NCBI GenBank assembly: GCA_010645155.1
Contig: CM021315.1
Location: 7,329,034 to 7,393,033 of the forward strand
From: Tigriopus japonicus
Lineage: Eukaryota > Arthropoda > Copepoda > Harpacticoida > Harpacticidae
Length of the DNA stretch: 64,000 bases
Reading direction: 5' to 3'
Shown: positions 18,694 through 36,354 of the stretch, piece by piece
Layout: the number at the start of each line of letters is the position of its first letter
How positions within the stretch are numbered: the stretch's first letter is position 1
Program-made: the position numbers and the translations under genes
The notes under the pieces: model-generated
What the model saw: only the letters and a program-made list of their open reading frames with translations
Databases searched by the model: none
Told to the model about the DNA's origin: nothing

Positions 18694-18717
18694 GCTTCAT
18701 TGGAATTTCTGGACACA

Positions 18718-20337
18718 ATGAAGCCAATTCCAGCGTTAGACTCTTTGTTGGAGAGCTTAATGCGCACTTGTTCCTTGACCGATGACAATCACGTTCCCTT
18801 GAAAGGTCATTGTTTACCTGAATTGAAAGTTATGTTCAAGATCCCTTGGGTATTCTCGGAAGCACCTGGTTTAGCCAACCACGGGATTACCAGCCAAGAA
18901 TCCTTGACTCGCTACATGAAATCCAATAGGAAAACCTACATTCGCTTTGAAAAATGTGTGTCAACGCGAAAGATCTATCGAAAGATTCCGAGTGAATTGG
19001 ATGCACTCATCGATTTCACCAAAATCTTGCACAAGCAAACAACCACAACACTGGAATCTCTTCAAGCCCTAATAGACGATGATAAAATTTTGAAACGTAG
19101 ATTGAGGAACACAACCAGTACACAAGAATTTCTTCGTCGCTATTCAGCCTTCTTTGGCTCTAAAACAAATGGATCAATCACGCCTTTGATTCATGCCAAG
19201 TATGAATGCGATTGCCTGAGACAATGCAACAAGAAAGTGGACTCTCTCGTTGTCATTAACAAAATCCGAAGGTACATCGAACAAATGGAGTCTTCGTCCA
19301 TCAAACTTTCCGATTTACTTGATCATTTGCGCAAAATCGGCTTCGATGTAAATGTGGCTGACCTTCGCAAATTTCTATTGCTCTTCTACAATCGAAACCT
19401 TGTATACAACTCCTCAAAGCCAAAACAGGTTCGAACAAAATCGGATCAACCTCTATCACAAATTGAAATCAACGAAATCATCGATGACGCTTTGAAAAAA
19501 TGGCCAGTATCTTTTCCCACCATTCAGGAGAAGTTAAATTGTGCCAATGTTTTCATTACCAATCATGCATTGAGGGCGATCATCGAGGGACATTTTCCCG
19601 ATTATTTCATGAAAGATGGACTTGTGTCCAAAGACTTTGGACAATGTTTGGCACCGGTACGAAAAATCTTGGGGAAGAAATGCATTATCTCTCTGACTGA
19701 ACTTCGAAATATGTTGGAATCTCGACGAATCGGACTACCAATACCAAAATTGATTGACTTGGTTGTCAGAAATCTTCGTGGACATTTCATCTACGAAGGA
19801 AAAATTTGTTTACCCACGTCCAAAGTGTCAGGAAAACTCGTGGCGAATTCTGTTTTGGACCACCTGAGTCTCATTTTGGAAGACCACTCCCGGATCTTGT
19901 TAGAGGATCTTGTCTCTAAGATGGCTTCAAGGGAAATCTTCATAACTGAAGAGAAGCTCAAAATGATCATTGAAAAGCATTCAACCATGTACAGATGTGA
20001 GAAGGACTGTGTTTGTCTGATTGATGATAAAACACGGGTGGTTAACCGTCGGAATGGTGATCCTCAGCCTTTGTGCAAAGTGGTGGCAAATTCGAATTTA
20101 TGGCAATTGAGCATGGGAAAGTATATTGGAGAACCAAAGAAAAGGGTCAAATCACAAATGAATTCAAACGTTCCAGAAGCTTATAGATACAAAGATTGGC
20201 CTGAAGGCCGATTCGACAAACTTCTCAAGGCAAATTTTGAAAATCGAGTTCGTCATCGTGACAAGGTTAACTTCAAACGAAACAAAGATCCAAAGAATAG
20301 TTTCCGAGTCGTTGGTAAGCCCAAAAATGGGAAATGA
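18718..20337 (+). CDS. tandem winged-helix-like repeat protein (paralogue 1)
   Basis: A single open frame of 539 codons, starting at ATG 18718 (MKPIPALDSLLESL). It carries about five repeats of ~55-60 residues: an amphipathic helix, a second helix after a Ser/Thr-Leu turn, a third helix, then a short beta-like strand pair ending in G. Clear examples are VRKILGKKCIISLTELRNML... (about 317-371) and VLDHLSLILEDHSRILLEDL... (about 378-437). The last repeat ends YRCEKDCVCL, and a basic tail (RVRHRDKVNFKRNK) closes the protein. The repeat resembles small winged-helix folds such as LOTUS/OST-HTH, but I cannot name the family. Poly(A) signals AATAAA lie at 20478 and 20552. It converges with its paralogue at 21572-23278. 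Nucleic-acid binding is inference only. Confidence 0.8.
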   Translation: MKPIPALDSLLESLMRTCSLTDDNHVPLKGHCLPELKVMFKIPWVFSEAPGLANHGITSQESLTRYMKSNRKTYIRFEKCVSTRKIYRKIPSELDALIDFTKILHKQTTTTLESLQALIDDDKILKRRLRNTTSTQEFLRRYSAFFGSKTNGSITPLIHAKYECDCLRQCNKKVDSLVVINKIRRYIEQMESSSIKLSDLLDHLRKIGFDVNVADLRKFLLLFYNRNLVYNSSKPKQVRTKSDQPLSQIEINEIIDDALKKWPVSFPTIQEKLNCANVFITNHALRAIIEGHFPDYFMKDGLVSKDFGQCLAPVRKILGKKCIISLTELRNMLESRRIGLPIPKLIDLVVRNLRGHFIYEGKICLPTSKVSGKLVANSVLDHLSLILEDHSRILLEDLVSKMASREIFITEEKLKMIIEKHSTMYRCEKDCVCLIDDKTRVVNRRNGDPQPLCKVVANSNLWQLSMGKYIGEPKKRVKSQMNSNVPEAYRYKDWPEGRFDKLLKANFENRVRHRDKVNFKRNKDPKNSFRVVGKPKNGK

Positions 20338-20743: not shown

Positions 20744-21604
20744 TTACTCTATGATATTATTATTAGGTGACATGATAAAGACAAAAGGTGTCGAGACTAA
20801 AACTAGAACAATGCATTGGAAATGTGTGTTTGATAATCCCGACTCAAATTGACCAATTATTATATTCAGAAAATTAGCTACATAAATTAACTGACATTTA
20901 AAGGAATAAATGGTTGCATCATTATGGCAAATGTCGAAGCACAGTTGTTGACAAGCTTTATTGATACCGTTTCTCAAGGCACGGGATTTGTCACTTACGA
21001 CATTCATGGATTCTTCGACATCATTGATGTAACTTTGGAATTGTTTTTGGTTCACCAGATTAAGAGGTTCACGATAGATCAGATTGGTTTGGGTCTTCTA
21101 AACAAAATATTCTAATTAAGGTTCTAATCTTCCAAAGTAGCACATGCTTCACCAAGAAGGAATCTTTGGACAAGATGTTCGGAAATTTGAAATGATTTAG
21201 ATTACAAGGTTTCAACACAAGTTCAACAGCCTACTTCATCAACATCCTCATCCAAACGCCTTTGGAGGTACTTTTTGCTCTGGAAGGCTTTGAGTTTCTG
21301 ATAGAGTTGCATTGCTCTTGTAGAGGAACTCGGTTTTGTGGTTCTTTGCTTTGAGTCGGTGATAACATCTTCCATAGCGATTTTACTGTTGACTGAAAAG
21401 AAATAATGAAATTAAAATAAATGTCATATTTCAATTTATTCAATTTTAAACCTTTCAAAAGCTAATGTTTGGCATATTTCATATAATTTGCACCATTTTC
21501 AATTTTTTAATCTTTTTGGTTGGATTGTTCGTTTTTTGAACTCAACTGAAAACTCACCAAGACTTTTTCCTTTATTGCTCTTTTTGACCAACATGGTTTC
21601 CATT
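20744..21604 (-). CDS. splice-consistent exons downstream of paralogue 2
   Basis: Three minus-strand segments join in one frame with canonical sites. The first ends at 21558 (CTTG|GTGAGT). The second is 21392-21235 (TTTTCAG acceptor; GAA|GTAGGC donor). The third starts at 21097 (TTTGTTTAG acceptor) and stays open to 20744. Encoded pieces include RAMQLYQKLKAFQSKKYLQ, an acidic LDEDVDE, and a helical QFQSYINDVEESMNVVSDKS. The frame has an ATG at 21604 but differs from the frame in which paralogue 2 ends at 21572. It is either a small separate gene, an alternative 3' end of paralogue 2, or the result of an indel in paralogue 2. No family recognised. Confidence 0.45.
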
Positions 21605-23278
21605 TTCGTCTGTTAGGAGAGCATTCTTGTTGATATCCAAAGACTTCAAGCCCATCAGTATCTCCTCCAAAGATTTTGGATCCAAGGTTTCTCTGCATCT
21701 TTTCTTCAACGACATACAGTTTCCTTGACACACATAAGAGAATGAATAATCGGAAACCATCTTCTTTAGCTTATTTCCGGATACTTCGATTCCTTTGGCC
21801 GCTAAAACGGGTAACAAACTGTCAATCGAATGTGGCAATTTGTCCTCCAAATGGGGATAAAGAGCTTCAAACACAAGGGTCGCCATGAAAGAGCCATTGC
21901 ATGATTTTGAGATTGGTGAGTAGATGAAACCTTTTACAATGAAGTAGTCGCTGATCTCTTCGACAATCAGGTCCCTTAAATCCGTTTGATTTAATTGAAT
22001 CGAAAGCGATGGCAAAGTCTTTTGAATTTTGGTCAAAGAAATGGGACATTTCTCGTCCAGAATGCGTTGAACAAGACTGATTTGGTCTTTTGAAATTGGT
22101 GTTGAGGGTTGATTAAGGACCATAGTTGGACAACAACTTGATTTATCATCACTGATGAATGACGGAACACTTTCAACAACATTGCTTTTGATGGTATCAT
22201 TTCGTTCTTGGACACTGACTTCATCGTCATCTTTAAATTTCAATCCTGGGAGACGAGTCTCGATAACCAATTTAACGTTGGCTTTGGTCATGGCAATTCC
22301 TTTGGCTTTTAGTTGCTTTGCGATATCAGCAATATCCACTGAAAAGCCCTGTTTTGAAATGGATTCGAGAGCCAAGAGGCAAGGATCCCCAAACCAAGTG
22401 ATCATCCCACCTTCATCAATCTTAAATTCTGGGAAACGCGTTTTCAAATAGGAACGAAAATTGCTTTCCGTCATCTGAATTCCACACATTTTTAACGTTG
22501 CTTGTGCTTCCATGAAAGTAAAGGGACAGTTCTTGTTTAAAACGGTTCGAATCACTGAGCTCCTGTTAGCTTGAACAACCATGCCAGTGTTTTTGACTTT
22601 GAATGCAGGCAAGTTACTTTCAATTAAAGACCTTATGGTCTTATTAACCATGGGATTTCCAGATGCTTTCAACCACGCGCGTATGTGACTCAAAGTCATG
22701 GGACATCCTTGTTTCAGAATTTCTTCAAGTCTATCCGATTTTGTGGTTTTTGGAGGTTTCGGCTTGGCTTTATCTTTTTGACTTGAAACTCGAATTCGGA
22801 ATACCAAGGAATTATCTATATTAAATTCCGGGAGGTTGCTTTTCAAAATTGTCTGGATCTCAGAGTCATCCATGGAAATGCCTTGCTTTCTCATTTTACC
22901 AAGAATCTCAGTCATTGGAATGGGACACTTCTTGTTGAGTATTGTTTGAACCATGTTAATTCTTTGATTTGAAGATCCCTGGTTGCATTGAGGAATTCCA
23001 CGTAAAGTTGTCAGACGTTTGCTGTTCTCCTCTTTGGCCATTTTTGGAGGCAACATTTGTGAGACCATTCCACTGGCAGCAATCTTAAATGAGGGGAATT
23101 GAGTCTCGAGGGAATGTCTTAACCTATTGATGCCAATTGGAATTCCCTGGGCTTGCAAATCCATACGAATGGCGTTTATGCCTCTTGGACATTTTTCTAA
23201 GATCCGGTTAAAGATGAGCTCAGCCTCCTTGGTAAGCTCAAATGAGTTGGGTGTAGCTAAATCAGAATTGGTAGACAT
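21572..23278 (-). CDS. tandem winged-helix-like repeat protein (paralogue 2)
   Basis: A 568-codon open frame from ATG 23278. Seven repeats of ~54-60 residues are readable. They begin near residues 17, 105, 180, 237, 297, 384 and 448 and follow the pattern IL-x-KxCP-hydrophobic-T-x-I-x3-L-x3-GI-x-M-x5-R-x2-I-x4-P-x-F-K-I-x3-GM(V/I), for example TILNKKCPIPMTEILGKM. The last ends SYVCQGNCMSL, matching the CxxxxC end of the plus-strand paralogue. Helix-helix-helix-strand periodicity suggests tandem winged helices; LOTUS/OST-HTH or Egalitarian-type wHTH are candidates by shape only. No catalytic motif, signal peptide or membrane segment. The C-terminus is uncertain, because exons in another frame follow. 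Confidence 0.8.
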   Translation of the reverse strand: MSTNSDLATPNSFELTKEAELIFNRILEKCPRGINAIRMDLQAQGIPIGINRLRHSLETQFPSFKIAASGMVSQMLPPKMAKEENSKRLTTLRGIPQCNQGSSNQRINMVQTILNKKCPIPMTEILGKMRKQGISMDDSEIQTILKSNLPEFNIDNSLVFRIRVSSQKDKAKPKPPKTTKSDRLEEILKQGCPMTLSHIRAWLKASGNPMVNKTIRSLIESNLPAFKVKNTGMVVQANRSSVIRTVLNKNCPFTFMEAQATLKMCGIQMTESNFRSYLKTRFPEFKIDEGGMITWFGDPCLLALESISKQGFSVDIADIAKQLKAKGIAMTKANVKLVIETRLPGLKFKDDDEVSVQERNDTIKSNVVESVPSFISDDKSSCCPTMVLNQPSTPISKDQISLVQRILDEKCPISLTKIQKTLPSLSIQLNQTDLRDLIVEEISDYFIVKGFIYSPISKSCNGSFMATLVFEALYPHLEDKLPHSIDSLLPVLAAKGIEVSGNKLKKMVSDYSFSYVCQGNCMSLKKRCRETLDPKSLEEILMGLKSLDINKNALLTDENGNHVGQKEQ

Positions 23279-27525: not shown

Positions 27526-28502
27526 TAACAACTATGGACCTGAATCCACACGCAAGTTCCTCTTGAAGATGGGATAAGAACCACATTTCCCCCGGAAACT
27601 CTCCCTTGGACAAAAACGCGGAATTTCATCACCCTCATTCATTACACAACTTGAACAACTCAAGAATATCTTGCCTCTCCTTGCATTAGCAACAACAAAC
27701 AAACTGGCGTCTTTTTTCGAGCTCATCTGTTACCTACAGAAGCTCATGTGAAAGAAGCGTCGTCAGAACACTAGTGACGGTGGATTTATCATGAAGCTTA
27801 AAAAAATCCAAACAAACTGAGAAGTGCAAGAGAAAAAAATACAGCCTTTGACCGAAAAATACCCTTGCCAGGGCTTGAATCCATCTTCTTTTATGATCCA
27901 ATGACTGGATCAATCTGTAGTGGCATGATCTATGTAAATTGATTGCAAAATCGACTTTCATTATAACTTGAATTTCCTGATTGATGGTGGTGACAACAAG
28001 GGCAAACATTTGAAGCTTCAAAAAATCCAAACAACCTGACTGTGTTGACGCTTCTTTCCCATGACCTTCTTTATTGTTACCCAACTTGAACAACTTACAT
28101 TGAATTATCCTGACCTCAATTGGATAATCATACAATGAAAGAAATTTGAAGATACAAGCATCAATTCTAGAACCTGAATTTATGCCAAGGTGACACAACC
28201 CATAAAAACCTAGATTTCCAATAAGCAACAAAGTTTGCCTTGTCTTTATTAAGTACAGGATTGTTGGTGAATGATCAAGAATAAGTCGTTCAAGACGGGT
28301 AACAGATGAGCTCAAAAAAAGACGCCGTTTTGTTGTTGATAATTCAAGGAAAGGCAAGATATTCTTAAGTTGTTTAAGTTGTGTAATGAATGAGCGCGAT
28401 GAAACTCCGCGTTTTTGTCCGGGAGAGAGTTGCCGGGGGAAGTGTGGTTCTTATGCCATCTTCAAGAGGAATTGGCGTGTGGATTAAGGTCCATAAGCTA
28501 CA
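27526..28502. mobile_element. family F long-inverted-repeat element (split by a MITE)
   Basis: Arms of about 205 bp (27526-27735 and 28298-28502) are inverted copies containing AACTCTCCC, CATTACACAACTTGAACAAC and GAGCTCATCTGTTACC. The interior 28076-28297 is AT-rich. A second copy with shorter arms is at 60220-60600. This copy is interrupted by a family E MITE at 27737-28075. The 207-codon minus-strand ORF across it has no domain and is chance. Confidence 0.65.
27737..28075. mobile_element. family E MITE inserted in family F element
   Basis: Its ends CAGAAGCTCATGTGAAAGAA... and ...TTCTTTCCCATGACCTTCTT are inverted repeats around GAAAGAAGCGTC. The flanking 8-mers GTTACCTA and GTTACCCA (7 of 8 identical) look like a target duplication. 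It is homologous to the MITE in the selenoprotein intron at 33705-34053. Confidence 0.65.
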
Positions 28503-29341: not shown

Positions 29342-29395
29342 ATGGAAATAGAGTCCTGCTTGTTTGCCCGTGTTCCTCTCCCGCTTCTACCTGCT

Positions 29396-29580
29396 TTCTC
29401 ATTTTTTACTCCCAGTTCTACTTCTTTTCTCATTTTCTACTCCCAGTTCTACTTCTTTTCTCATTTTCTACTCCTAGTTCTACTTCTTTTCTCATTTTCT
29501 ACTTCCAGTTCGACTTGTTTTCTCATTTTCTGCTCCCAGTTCTATTTGTTTTCTCATTTTCTACTCCCGCTTCTACTCAC
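29396..29580. repeat. 31-bp minisatellite, about six copies
   Basis: The unit CTCATTTTCTACTCCCAGTT + CTACTTCTTTT is repeated about six times with few changes. It yields hydrophobic Phe/Leu/Ser-rich ORFs that are artefacts of the repeat. Confidence 0.85.
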
Positions 29581-29799
29581 ACTTTCTTCTCCCACCCAAA
29601 ACCCCCTATTTTCCACGCTTTCCCCGTAAATCTTGTCCTTTTGTTGGCAAGTTTCTCGATCAATATTCTCACTTTCTGCCTGGGAAAAGAAAAAAATCGA
29701 AGAGACACAGAATATGTCAAAAGTACCAGGAATATTCATTTACGCGGACGGAATAGCTATTTCTTTTAACCGGGTTACATTCTAACAGGGGCTGAGTAA

Positions 29800-30561: not shown

Positions 30562-30722
30562 GTTAAGACGAATAAAACTGCCAAATTAGACGAAAAAAGA
30601 CGAATAAAATTACCTGATAAGACGAAAAAAGACGAATAAAATTACCTGATAAGACGAAAAAAGACGAATAAAATTACCTGATTAAAAGAAAAAAGACTAA
30701 TAAAATTGCCCGATTAGACGCA
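30562..30722. repeat. ~33-bp tandem repeat (GACGAATAAAATTACCTGATAA)
   Basis: Four to five copies of GACGAATAAAATTACCTGAT followed by AAGACGAAAAAA. One further unit of this type is at 56800-56850. Non-coding. Confidence 0.75.
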
Positions 30723-30734
30723 TAATTTCCTAAA

Positions 30735-31632: not shown

Positions 31633-32784
31633 GTGTTCCGAATGGCTTTTTAGGTTTGAATCAAAATACCCAAAGACACCATGGCACTTTTTGGACCCAC
31701 AATTCAATGGGGAACAACTTTACTTTTATTGTATTATACAAGATTAGGTCCAGGGAAAAAGTTATATACCTAAAAACCTATTAAATATAACATTTTTTAA
31801 CAAACTATTTAATCCATATTTAGAGACCATTTAGTTACCTAATGAATTCAAATTGAATAAAAATTCATTCAGCAGTAACTGAGTTATTTGACTTTGAATG
31901 GTCCATTTTTGACCCCAAAAAGCTGAAAAACGCTACAGTTATATGAAAAAAAACAAATCCCTAAAGATTTCACATAGTTTTTCAATATTGCAAAAATAAA
32001 TGATTTTTTCAGCTTTGGAACTTATGTCAAAATTGCTCAAAATATGAAAAAAATATCACTTAAAAGGTATTTAAAATACATTTTCCAATAAAAAACTTTT
32101 GCAGTATCAAAGACACTCAAAGTTGGGTAATAATTTAAAGTTTTGAAGAAATCGGTTAATGTTTCAAGTTTCGATTTTAGTCCATTTTGAACATGGTCCT
32201 TCTAGAAATCGTAATTTTGGATATGACTCTGTTAGACATTTTTATTTGTAATTTTGGCACAACACACATCATAGCGTACCCTAAATTGTTATGAAAATAA
32301 CTTTCCAAAAATCTTATTTAAGTGCATTTTAAGTGATATTTTTTCATATTTTGAGCTATTTTGACATAAGTTCCAAAACTGAAAAAAATCATTTATTTTT
32401 GCAATATTGAAAAACTATGTGAAATCTTTGGGAATTTGTTTTTTCTTTATTATTATTATTGTTATTTCATATAACTGTAGCGTTTTTCAGCTTTTTGGGG
32501 TCAAAAATGGATGGACCATTCAAAGTCAAATAACTCAGCTGTTGCTGAATGAATTTTTATTCAATTTGAATTCATTTGGTAACTAAATGGTTTCTAAATA
32601 TGGATTAAATAGTTTGTTAAAAAATGTTATGTTTAATAGGTTTTTAGGTATATAACTTTTTCCCTGGACCTAATCTTGTATAATACAATAAAAGTAAAGT
32701 TGTTCCCCATTGAATTGTGGGTCCAAAAAGTGCCATGGTGTCTTTGGGTATTTTGATTCAAACCTAAAAAGCCATTCGGAACAC
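31633..32784. mobile_element. fold-back element with ~450-bp inverted arms
   Basis: The left arm (31633-~32080) and right arm (~32330-32784) are long inverted repeats that begin GTGTTCCGAATGGCTTTTTA at both ends. They share TTTGACCCCAAAAAGCTGAA and the TATAACTTTTTCCCTGGACC / complement stretch. The arms are ~95% alike by eye and the centre of ~250 bp is unique and non-coding. A target duplication is not obvious. It interrupts a LINE RT. Confidence 0.75.
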
Positions 32785-33025: not shown

Positions 33026-34577
33026 ATGGATTCGGTTGTTCTGTCAACTGTGGGGACACACAAAGCCTTACAATCCATGTTGAACAAGGCCAAAATACAT
33101 GCAAAAAACGACCGCGAGGACTTTTTGTCAAAGCCTGGACCTCATCTTGGTGCGTGTTAGTTTCATTCATTGTTTAATTCCATGTTCAGGGCGAATGTCT
33201 TTTCAGGAGGTGCAATCGGTGTTTATGCAAAGTTATTAAAATCCATGTCTTTGGGAACCCGCCCAGAATTGATGGAATATTGGTCGAAAAACGGACGGCA
33301 AAAGGAGCTCACGAACGTCGTTGAAACACTTTGGGAGGTGGAAGATGAATGGGACTCTTTCTTGGAAGAACTCGATAAGGTAATAGTTAAGAGTGTTGTT
33401 AATCCAGCCCCAATATGTAATACTTAGATTCCTTTAGGAGACCTTACGTGAGGGAGGTGATGAATCCAAAGAATTACTTACAACAGGATCTCAAGCCCCC
33501 GCCCATGTTGAGTTGACCAATGTAAGAACTCAAGAGAGCTTTAGCCTTCAAGGTCTCATGGACCAGTATGATTCAAATGAGGCTGACAGACTTCATCTAA
33601 TCTTACTCCGACACTTTGCCTGACTTCCGTGACGAGATCACGTGGCCTCTTTGGAGGGCAGTCAAGGAAAGTATCCTATTTTCCAGGTTTTTACCCAATA
33701 CTAAAGAAGCTCATGAGAAAGAAGCGTCGACACAGTCAAGTTGTTTGGATTTTTTGGAGCTTCAAATGTTTGTTGTTGTTGTCACCACAGTCAATCAGGA
33801 AGTTCAAGTTAAAACGAAAGTCGATTTTGCAATCAATTTACATAGATCATGCCAGTAAAAATTGATCCAGTCTTTGGATCACATAATAAGATGAATTCAG
33901 ACCCTTCCGTGGATATTTTTCAATCAAAGGCTCCTACTTGCTGTATTTTTTTCTCTTCCACTTCCTGGGTTGTTTGAATTTTTAAAGGCTTTGTGAAAAA
34001 GCCACTGTCGCCAGTGTTCTGACGACGTTTCTTTTGCATAAGCTTCTGTACCAAATACTAATGTCTAACAACTGTTGATTTTGGCGGGAAACGTGTATTT
34101 CACTACCACTTTGCTCTACAGCTCGCTTGAAAGCCTCGAAATTGGCTGTTGTGGTTGTTTCGTTCGGATTGCAAACTGGTGCAGAGAATTGGCTCCAAGA
34201 AACGGGATGCCAATTGCCAATGTTTCTCGATCCGGATCGCAAATTGTATCGCGCTTTTGGTCTTCATAGGTCTTTGGCCAAGGTATGCTTTCTATGCAAT
34301 CATGGGTAGTGCTAGCACACCGTAAAGTGCACTAAGTAGTACCATACGTTGCTTATTGATCCTTATTTTGAAGGTGTTCAATCATAAAAGTCTGTTCTAC
34401 TATGGAGAACAAGTAGCCTCTGGACGTGATCTGCCCAAGGCCATGAGTGGGATTGAGGACGATCCTTTGCAAATGGGTGGAAACTTTACCGTGTCCATTC
34501 CAAGTACCAAAATGACGTTGGTTTACCGGAGCAAAAACCCTTCGGACCGTCCATCTTTGGAACAAATTTTAGCGTAG
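33026..34577 (+). CDS. SELENOL: selenoprotein L (Prx-like2 / AhpC-TSA_2, U-x-x-U)
   Basis: Five exons: 33026-33149, 33207-33379, 33438-33660, 34122-34282 and 34374-34577, about 294 residues. The ATG at 33026 has an in-frame TAG 24 bases upstream. The N-terminal half is helical. The thioredoxin-fold region starts GSQAPAHVELTNV (exon 3) and runs to LILLRHFA, then TGA-CTT-CCG-TGA-CGA (33621-33635). Read as selenocysteine, this is the pair U161-LP-U164 at the place of the peroxiredoxin-like CxxC. Exons 4 and 5 continue the fold (KLAVVVVSFG, FLDPDRKLYRAFGL, then DDPLQMGGNFTVS and LVYRSKNPSDRPSLEQIL), typical of AhpC/TSA_2. The exon 3 donor is the weak point: GTCAAG at 33661 keeps phase, whereas GTATCC at 33671 does not. 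A SECIS-like element follows. Presumed redox enzyme; the family is described from aquatic animals. Confidence 0.88.
33621..33632 (+). other. paired in-frame TGA (selenocysteine) codons
   Basis: TGA at 33621-33623 and 33630-33632 are separated by CTT CCG. Both are in the frame fixed by exons 1-3, and the frame carries on with RDHVASLEG afterwards. The spacing gives U-x-x-U, the diselenide motif known in selenoprotein L. Confidence 0.87.
33705..34053. mobile_element. family E MITE in intron 3 of the selenoprotein gene
   Basis: A 349-bp element with inverted ends AGAAGCTCATGAGAAAGAAG / ...CTTTTGCATAAGCTTCTGTA and a perfect 8-bp duplication AATACTAA (33697-33704, 34054-34061). Removing it restores an intron of ~110 bases, similar in size to the other introns. 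Confidence 0.82.
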
Positions 34578-34599
34578 AAGCTCAACAAAAGAAGAAGTG

Positions 34600-34680
34600 C
34601 AAAAGTAACCTATGATGGTTTGGGATGAAATTCATTTGAACTTCCCAAAGCTTGATGCCTCAGCTACAGAGTACTTTTTC
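34600..34680 (+). promoter_or_regulatory. SECIS-like element in the selenoprotein 3' UTR
   Basis: It begins 34 bases after the stop. The core ATGA is at 34612-34615, followed by 12 nt, the apical AA at 34628-34629, 23 nt, then TGAT at 34653-34656. Spacing fits the eukaryotic SECIS consensus (ATGA-N10-12-AA-N18-27-NGAN). The helix TTTGGGA (34619-34625) pairs with TTCCCAAA (34642-34649). Outer pairing of AAAAGTA (34601-34607) with TACTTTT (34672-34678) is possible. SECIS RNA recruits SBP2 and the Sec-specific elongation factor so that UGA is read as selenocysteine. Confidence 0.82.
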
Positions 34681-34703
34681 TTGAGTAATTAGATATTTAC
34701 GTA

Positions 34704-36352
34704 CAGTCAGGAGCAAAAGTATTCGTAACCTCGAAAATTTTATTGATTTTTAAATGATACTCGATTTTTGAAAAATACATTTAAGAACCATTTTGCTCCT
34801 TAGTTATTCTTTTATCATTTAAAAGCTATGATACTTTTCTTTTTAAAAATTTACAAGATTTTGTTTAAAAAACTGCTCAGAACATGTATTAGACCAAGAG
34901 CAAAAGTATTCGTAACATTTTGTCAATAGTTTATTGAATGCCCTTTTTGCTGAATTACACTTAAGAGACGTTTTTTATAATCATTTACAAGATTTTTACA
35001 TACATCTGAAGGAATGTTAGCCCATTCTTCATAACAGATTTGCTCCAGTTCGTCAATTGTCTTTGGACGTCTTGCACGGATACGGACTTTTAATTCTCTC
35101 CAAAGGTTTTCAATTGGATTAAGGTCCGGATTCATGGAGGGCCAGTCCAAGACCTTAATCCGATTGTCCTTCAACCATTTCTTGACCAAAATGCTGTTGT
35201 GCTTAGGGTCGTTGTCGTGCTGGAAGACGAACTGTCGACCAAGCCAAAGTTTCCGCGCTGAACTCTGGAGATTCTCAGCCAAGATATCCCGATAGTCTTC
35301 TTTTTTCATTGTCCCATGAATTCTCACGAGGTTACCGGTGCCTTTGGCGGAAAAGGAGCCCCATAACATGATCGATCCTCCACCGTGCTTGACCGTAGGG
35401 ATGGTGTTTTTTGGATGAAACGCTTCTCCTTTACGTCGCCAAATCCTTTGAGCATCATTGTGACCAAAAAGCTCAACCTGTGTCTCATCTGACCAAAGAA
35501 TCCTAGACCAAAAGTCACTGGTCTTGTCAGGGTACTTCTTGGCAAATTCCAAGCGAGCCTTCAAGTGTCTATCCTTGAGCAAGGGAGTCTTCCGTGGGCG
35601 ACAAGACTTCAATCCTGCTTTGTGAAGTGAGCGAGCAACAGTAAACCTCGAGATGGACAATCCATTTTCACTGAGACTGTTCCGGATGTCCTTGACCGTT
35701 GTTCGAGGATTATTTGTGACCTCTCTGACAATCTTCCTCTCAAGTCTGGCTGACAGTTTCCTTGGACGACCGGATCTTGGGAGGTTCTCAACCGTTCCGT
35801 TCTTTTGTGCCTTCTTCACGACGTACTGAATCGTTGAAATCGGGATGTCCAGAAGCTTCGAAATGGCTCTGTAGCCCTTGCCTCCATGATGAAGACTTAC
35901 TATCTTCAACTCTTCAACTTCAAGTCCTTGTCGAGCTTCTTGACCTTGGTCATGATTGGTTGACTGTGAAGCAATTGTTCAATTCGGTAAAATTTATAAG
36001 ATCCAAGAAAGATCTAGAAAATCTTGGAAAAAAGGAGACTAAATGACTTTTCTCCGGCTTTCCAGAATGTTCTACATCTTTCGATCAATTTTTTCTGATG
36101 AAAAATCTGTTTATAAACCTATTTTGTTAACTTTTTTGCGCGTTACGAATACTTTTACACTATCTAAAATTTTATTTTTAATAATTAAAAGTTAGTTTCA
36201 GACATTTTTATAAAACAATTGCGGGAAACTGGTATTATTCTTAATCGGAAAAAAATATTACATTCTTACAAACTTCTTAGCATAGTATTTAATTGGATAT
36301 AAAGGATTTTCTGGTTTTCTCGTCACGTTACAAATACTTTTGCTCCTGACTG
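34704..36352 (-). mobile_element. Tc1-type transposon with IR/DR ends
   Basis: The 1649-bp element lies between TA dinucleotides (34702-34703, 36353-36354). Outer ends CAGTCAGGAGCAAAAGTATT are nearly identical. A second copy of the AGCAAAAGTATTCGTAAC motif lies ~195 bp inside the left end (34897-34915), and a partner lies at 36141-36160 on the right. This is the two-binding-site inverted/direct repeat layout of Sleeping Beauty-like Tc1 elements. It starts only about 45 bases after the SECIS of the upstream gene. Confidence 0.92.
34923..35978 (-). CDS. Tc1 transposase (DD34E), nearly intact
   Basis: The frame is open for about 350 codons, with an N-terminal paired-like HTH (GYRAISKLLDIPISTIQYVV), a GRPR hook (RSGRPRKLS), a second HTH (VARSLHKAGLK) and the full catalytic triad LWSDETQ, FQHDNDPKH and NPDLNPIENLW. 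Exactly 34 residues separate the second Asp from Glu. The C-terminus (NLVNDYKKRLLSVIQQKG) is complete. This frame has no ATG before the HTH. An ATG at 35955 (MTKVKKLDKDLKLK) is in another frame that ends at a TGA, so a one-base indel near 35911 probably breaks the N-terminus. Confidence 0.88.
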   Translation of the reverse strand, partial: TIASQSTNHDQGQEARQGLEVEELKIVSLHHGGKGYRAISKLLDIPISTIQYVVKKAQKNGTVENLPRSGRPRKLSARLERKIVREVTNNPRTTVKDIRNSLSENGLSISRFTVARSLHKAGLKSCRPRKTPLLKDRHLKARLEFAKKYPDKTSDFWSRILWSDETQVELFGHNDAQRIWRRKGEAFHPKNTIPTVKHGGGSIMLWGSFSAKGTGNLVRIHGTMKKEDYRDILAENLQSSARKLWLGRQFVFQHDNDPKHNSILVKKWLKDNRIKVLDWPSMNPDLNPIENLWRELKVRIRARRPKTIDELEQICYEEWANIPSDVCKNLVNDYKKRLLSVIQQKGHSINY

Positions 36353-36354
36353 TA

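Follow-up and report, generated by a model that had tools for sequence, protein, structure and literature searches.

The window analyzed here is a stretch of 64,000 nucleotides (64 kb) from the copepod Tigriopus japonicus (assembly GCA_010645155.1, contig CM021315.1, positions 7,329,034 to 7,393,033). At positions 33026-34577 of its plus strand lies a five-exon gene that is very probably a selenoprotein L (SelL) gene, with two in-frame TGA codons predicted to specify selenocysteine (Sec, U) and a candidate selenocysteine insertion sequence (SECIS) element in the 3' untranslated region (UTR) (Table 1). All exon borders are GT-AG, and the joined exons form a frame of 885 nt (i.e., 294 amino acids plus a stop codon) in which the only stops ahead of the terminal TAG are TGA at 33621 and TGA at 33630 (residues 161 and 164). 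This joined frame bears out the first-pass annotation, which had proposed five exons with GT-AG borders and a TGA pair in a continuing coding frame, and the four motifs named there (LILLRHFA, VVVVSFG, DDPLQMGG, and YRSKNPSDRPS) are all present in the translation.

Table 1. Features of the predicted SelL gene and of the repeat copy within it (window coordinates).
Feature	Coordinates	Strand	Remarks
SelL exon 1	33026..33149	+	ATG start; residues 1-41 plus one base
SelL exon 2	33207..33379	+	Part of N-terminal helical region; TTTTCAG acceptor, AAG|GTAATA donor
SelL exon 3	33438..33660	+	Contains LILLRHFA-U-LP-U-RDHVASLEG
TGA codon, predicted selenocysteine 161	33621..33623	+	Aligned with Cys44 of human prostamide/prostaglandin F synthase
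TGA codon, predicted selenocysteine 164	33630..33632	+	Aligned with Cys47 of human prostamide/prostaglandin F synthase
SelL exon 4	34122..34282	+	VVVVSFG strand, FLDPDRKLYRAFGLHRSLAK; acceptor CTCTACAG
SelL exon 5	34374..34577	+	DDPLQMGG, YRSKNPSDRPS, TAG stop
Candidate SECIS element in 3' UTR	34605..34667	+	Rfam SECIS_1 RF00031; AUGA ... AAA apical motif ... UGAU
Repeat copy (probable transposable element)	33697..34050	.	Most of intron 3; inverted copies at 27843-28078 (86%) and 27735-27845 (82%)

Reading on from in-frame stops just upstream, the ATG at 33026 provides the first Met codon. For exons 2 and 4, no frame other than the coding one is open; in exon 3, the other frames contain 3 and 8 stops and the coding frame contains the TGA pair only; in exon 5, the coding frame is open up to the TAG and the other frames contain 4 and 3 stops. 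Exon 1 has one further open frame besides the coding frame. The introns measure 57 bp, 58 bp, 461 bp (33661-34121), and 91 bp, respectively. The donor of intron 3 (GCA|GTCAAG at 33661) is weak. Past the TGA pair and ahead of the next in-frame stop (33702), no other GT would preserve the frame into exon 4, and the sole frame-keeping alternative seen was a GC donor (33658) whose product would be one residue shorter. A self-search of the genome (194.85 Mb in 158 contigs) detected no second SelL gene, the five matches being the five exons of this gene. The 12-mer TGACTTCCGTGA is by itself uninformative, with 18 copies in the genome.

Regarding family membership, the translation matched Pfam AhpC-TSA_2 (PF13911) above its cutoff (45.1 bits; cutoff, 27; E value, 1.5e-11) and the NCBIfam model NF040769, "SelL-related redox protein" (118.7 bits; E value, 2e-34). 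Together with U161 and U164, these matches agree with the earlier assignment to the SelL/Prx-like2 family with a UxxU motif. A database search with the single sequence retrieved two relatives, and a search with a three-sequence alignment retrieved 20. The closest (P0001, a MAKER model labeled Tk06984, in which the Tk probably denotes Tigriopus kingsejongensis) was 56% identical over 95% of the length, with long conserved blocks in common. Trp-x-x-Trp was printed at both sites in 17 of the 20 relatives. One (P0009) stops with ...LLRHFA, immediately ahead of the first Sec position, and two lack the motif (i.e., P0001 and P0010, the latter an NCBI model from Artemia franciscana). The expectation that standard open reading frame (ORF) calling would miss the gene is matched by these three sequences. 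Cys-x-x-Cys at the redox site was found in none of the 20; given that the search admitted sequences of 0.55 to 1.75 times the query length, truncated readings are undercounted in this set, whereas full-length CxxC relatives are not. The first-pass annotation had placed a CxxC pair at this position in homologues, which holds for human prostamide/prostaglandin F synthase (C44/C47) and for none of the relatives retrieved.

The C-terminal extension of P0001 matches one of two long ORFs in the window (18700-20337 on the plus strand and 21572-23278 on the minus strand; 44% identity over 36 amino acids), and P0001 is perhaps a fused model of neighboring genes. The two ORFs are related (29% over 241 amino acids), and neither has a Pfam match above the curated cutoff.

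A SECIS search had been proposed in the first-pass annotation, in which no such element was recorded. The Rfam model RF00031 identified one that starts 27 nt past the stop codon; a SECIS in the right place tells a selenoprotein gene apart from a gene with plain stops. The match spans the whole model with 26 bits (E value, 0.028 in 2 kb; 0.9 for 64 kb and 4227 families; by division, approximately 2e-4 for the SECIS family alone in the window), and no second SECIS match appeared in the window at E values up to 10. A simple SECIS-like pattern (AUGA, stem, AA, UGA) with 80% pairing had three sites across both strands of the 64 kb: this element on the plus strand and two others on the minus strand. 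At a threshold of at least 85% stem pairs, the pattern had no match in the window, and the element itself was missed. The region 34585-34700 is more stably folded than most shuffled sequences (z score, -2.83; 5 of 200 shuffles were equally or more stable).

The genome encodes genes for Sec synthesis and insertion, namely, tRNA-Sec, SepSecS, SPS2, and eEFSec, as the first-pass annotation had supposed of the host. One tRNA-Sec scored above the cutoff (79.9 bits; anticodon TCA according to ARAGORN), and the remaining 16 rows were below it; the one such row that was checked (L010) proved to be a tRNA-Ser. SepSecS was detected with 319.9 bits to a solved O-phosphoseryl-tRNA(Sec) selenium transferase. 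There are two selenophosphate synthetase paralogues (L035 and L036; contigs C9 and C11); one, SPS2, contains GGA-TGA-GGT-TGT-AAA at what is presumably the catalytic site, and the other has Arg at that position. eEFSec was found at C1:7435118-7435552, with 203.7 bits to solved eEFSec chains versus 65.9 to EF-Tu. Another of the 20 selB matches (L038) was EF-Tu.

We also looked for relatives outside animals. The nucleotide pattern TTY GCN TGA NNN CCN TGA NGN GAY CAY occurred at six loci in bacterial genomes, one of which, L024, lies in a Dehalococcoidia metagenome-assembled genome labeled ALOHA and is truly related (33% identity over 151 residues). Its DNA contains both TGA codons in the same context as the copepod gene (TGA-Leu-Pro-TGA-Arg-Asp-His). 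Its stop-to-stop frame of 185 residues differs in leaving no room for the N-terminal helical part. Bacterial Sec signals are unlike a 3' UTR SECIS. No tRNA was found in the 8 kb around L024, a search that did not extend to Sec genes elsewhere in this bacterium. The other five loci contained many stops or had no likeness and look like chance matches. A protein-pattern search of bacterial genomes yielded 423 stretches and no relatives, and there were no matches in viral contigs or plasmids.

Several of our results weigh against reading the locus as a SelL gene. The NF040769 score falls 1.3 bits short of the cutoff of 120, and the SECIS score is below the Rfam gathering score of 35. The minimum-energy fold preserves the upper SECIS stem alone, with the flanks paired otherwise. 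A genome-wide SECIS scan at an E value of 0.001, in which 134 of 4621 candidates were scored, returned none, the element in the window included, and its controls gave no signal. Neither Rfam nor our own pattern detected a SECIS in the 1.5 kb that follow the final matched segment of this genome's SPS2; at 75% pairing, the pattern had one weak match ahead of this segment and none beyond it, so either the SECIS tools used are weak or the SPS2 element is located elsewhere. In addition, the bearing of the 17 WxxW relatives depends on our taking the printed Trp to be TGA decoded by gene callers with a code in which TGA means Trp. With these 17 read as TGA, no CxxC in any of the 20, and both TGA codons in the bacterial DNA, the relatives appear to keep the Sec pair. 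Lastly, three phase-1 GTs upstream of the TGA pair (33448, 33457, and 33553) could in principle remove the pair by in-frame splicing, with loss of the core strand.

Such donors raise the possibility that the TGA pair is bypassed, with an upstream site (e.g., 33553) joined to exon 4 to give a protein without the redox motif, as in the Tk06984 and Artemia models. However, this splicing would remove the strand ahead of the active site together with a motif found in 17 of the 20 relatives, and it would leave the SECIS without a purpose; the two models that skip the motif (P0001 and P0010) are probably products of annotators treating TGA as a stop. We consider the bypass very improbable, and the same applies to a decaying SelL pseudogene in which the residual frame is accidental. 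Repeats occur in intron 3 and again approximately 35 bp past the SECIS, and the donor at 33661 is weak, both of which would suit decay; against this stand 885 nt without a frameshift or an unexpected stop, a SECIS in place, and the long conserved blocks shared with Tk06984.

Even less probable is a recoded nuclear code in which TGA is decoded as tryptophan. The Trp printed at both sites in most relatives would fit this explanation; however, the other Trp codons of the gene are all TGG, TGA occurs only at these two sites, and the genome contains tRNA-Sec, eEFSec, SepSecS, and SPS2. Moreover, we know of no animal nuclear genome in which TGA encodes Trp. We estimate a probability of approximately 0.95 that the locus is a working selenoprotein L (SELENOL) gene in a Tigriopus-type copepod, and from its sequence we would expect the gene to be expressed and translated.

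If the gene works as established selenoprotein biology suggests, SBP2 bound to the SECIS would recruit eEFSec and Sec-tRNA, and both UGA codons would be decoded as Sec. The predicted protein would consist of a helical N-terminal part followed by a thioredoxin-fold Prx-like2 domain, with Sec161 and Sec164 at the N terminus of that fold's first helix. The pair may cycle between diselenol and diselenide, making the protein a two-electron oxidoreductase directed at peroxides or thiols. Given that the gene is SelL, a thioredoxin-linked peroxide or disulfide reductase would be the most likely role, which we favor somewhat over other possibilities.

Human prostamide/prostaglandin F synthase (PDB 9us9 and 9usa, which we take to be PRXL2B/FAM213B) shares the thioredoxin-type fold, and its Cys44-x-x-Cys47 aligns with Sec161-x-x-Sec164. 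It differs in having Cys rather than Sec, whereas the copepod gene has TGA, and no CxxC, at both sites. The solved chains align only past approximately residue 115 of the model of a relative (P0002), with 23 to 24% identity, and the N-terminal helical part (approximately 110 residues) is absent from both the human Prx-like enzyme and the bacterial UxxU protein seen here. A fold search with the model of P0009, which comprises mainly the N-terminal part (predicted local distance difference test score, 80.7), had no match below an E value of 0.88, a result that does not in itself show a new fold. We tentatively suggest, as a rather doubtful proposal, that animal SelL is a two-domain enzyme, in which the N-terminal helical part may give a partner or substrate specificity that preserves the diselenide site in aquatic animals.

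In addition to the SelL gene, the window contains a number of mobile and repetitive sequences. The repeat copy in intron 3 supplies the in-frame stop at 33702. A Tc1/mariner-type element (34704-36353) starts approximately 35 bp past the SECIS; it is bounded by inverted repeats that agree by eye at 25 of 26 bases, and it carries a transposase ORF on the minus strand (34923-35909; HTH_Tnp_Tc3_2 and DDE_3). Upstream of the gene, two arms of 274 nt (31633-31906 and 32511-32784) are 98% complementary and lie 604 nt apart, possibly forming a nonautonomous transposon that ends approximately 240 bp short of the start codon of SelL. Short tandem arrays of 31- and 32-nt units occur at 29352-29608 and 30565-30724. 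A TRM13 tRNA methyltransferase gene on the minus strand (1758-2801) encodes a protein 99% identical to one further database entry, 80% identical to that of Tigriopus californicus, and 61% identical to a Tk-labeled protein. These figures place the host in or near Tigriopus and suggest a species other than T. californicus.

The founding SelL paper is reportedly that of Shchedrina in 2007 (PNAS). The gene described here has the features of this family, i.e., a UxxU motif with two predicted Sec residues as its Prx-like redox site, a single candidate SECIS serving both, an AhpC-TSA_2 domain, and an aquatic host; it differs in its copepod host and in an intron 3 that is mostly a repeat element, and the sequence is otherwise as expected for the family. 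According to the available excerpts of the papers cited here, SelL is present in five of six marine invertebrates (Amphimedon, Trichoplax, Nematostella, Capitella, and amphioxus, not Lottia; PMC3473315), is known in Ciona from expressed sequence tags (PMC2874816), and gave its name to a prawn transcript through a Ciona hit ("Selenoprotein L"; PMC4411767). Several UxxU sequences of the Prx-like 2 family were reported from ocean metagenomes (Global Ocean Sampling survey; PMC2398784). Among arthropods, a centipede has 20 selenoproteins (PMC4244043), and the crustaceans Lepeophtheirus salmonis and Daphnia pulex are tabled among genomes with several predicted tRNA-Sec (PMC5330540); further counts of 17 and 16 in that table are taken to be selenoprotein predictions. 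The available parts of PMC2500217, PMC3965025, and PMC7539508 contain nothing on arthropod SelL. Among the titles and abstract openings retrieved for Tigriopus selenoproteins, none concerned copepod selenoproteins, and we do not claim that copepod SelL is unpublished.

SelL, a selenium protein of antioxidant type, is already known in fishes and marine invertebrates and also, through a name listed among prawn transcripts, in crustaceans; the present gene adds a member to the family. This leaves the general picture, in which SelL was previously known from fishes and marine invertebrates, unchanged. The two crustacean models without the active site illustrate that gene finders lose or mis-splice SelL. 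The locus puts SelL, a probable SECIS, and the Sec machinery in a copepod and gives the full genomic layout of the gene. The animal belongs to, or is close to, a laboratory genus, and copepods of this kind could serve to probe the role of this predicted diselenide enzyme.
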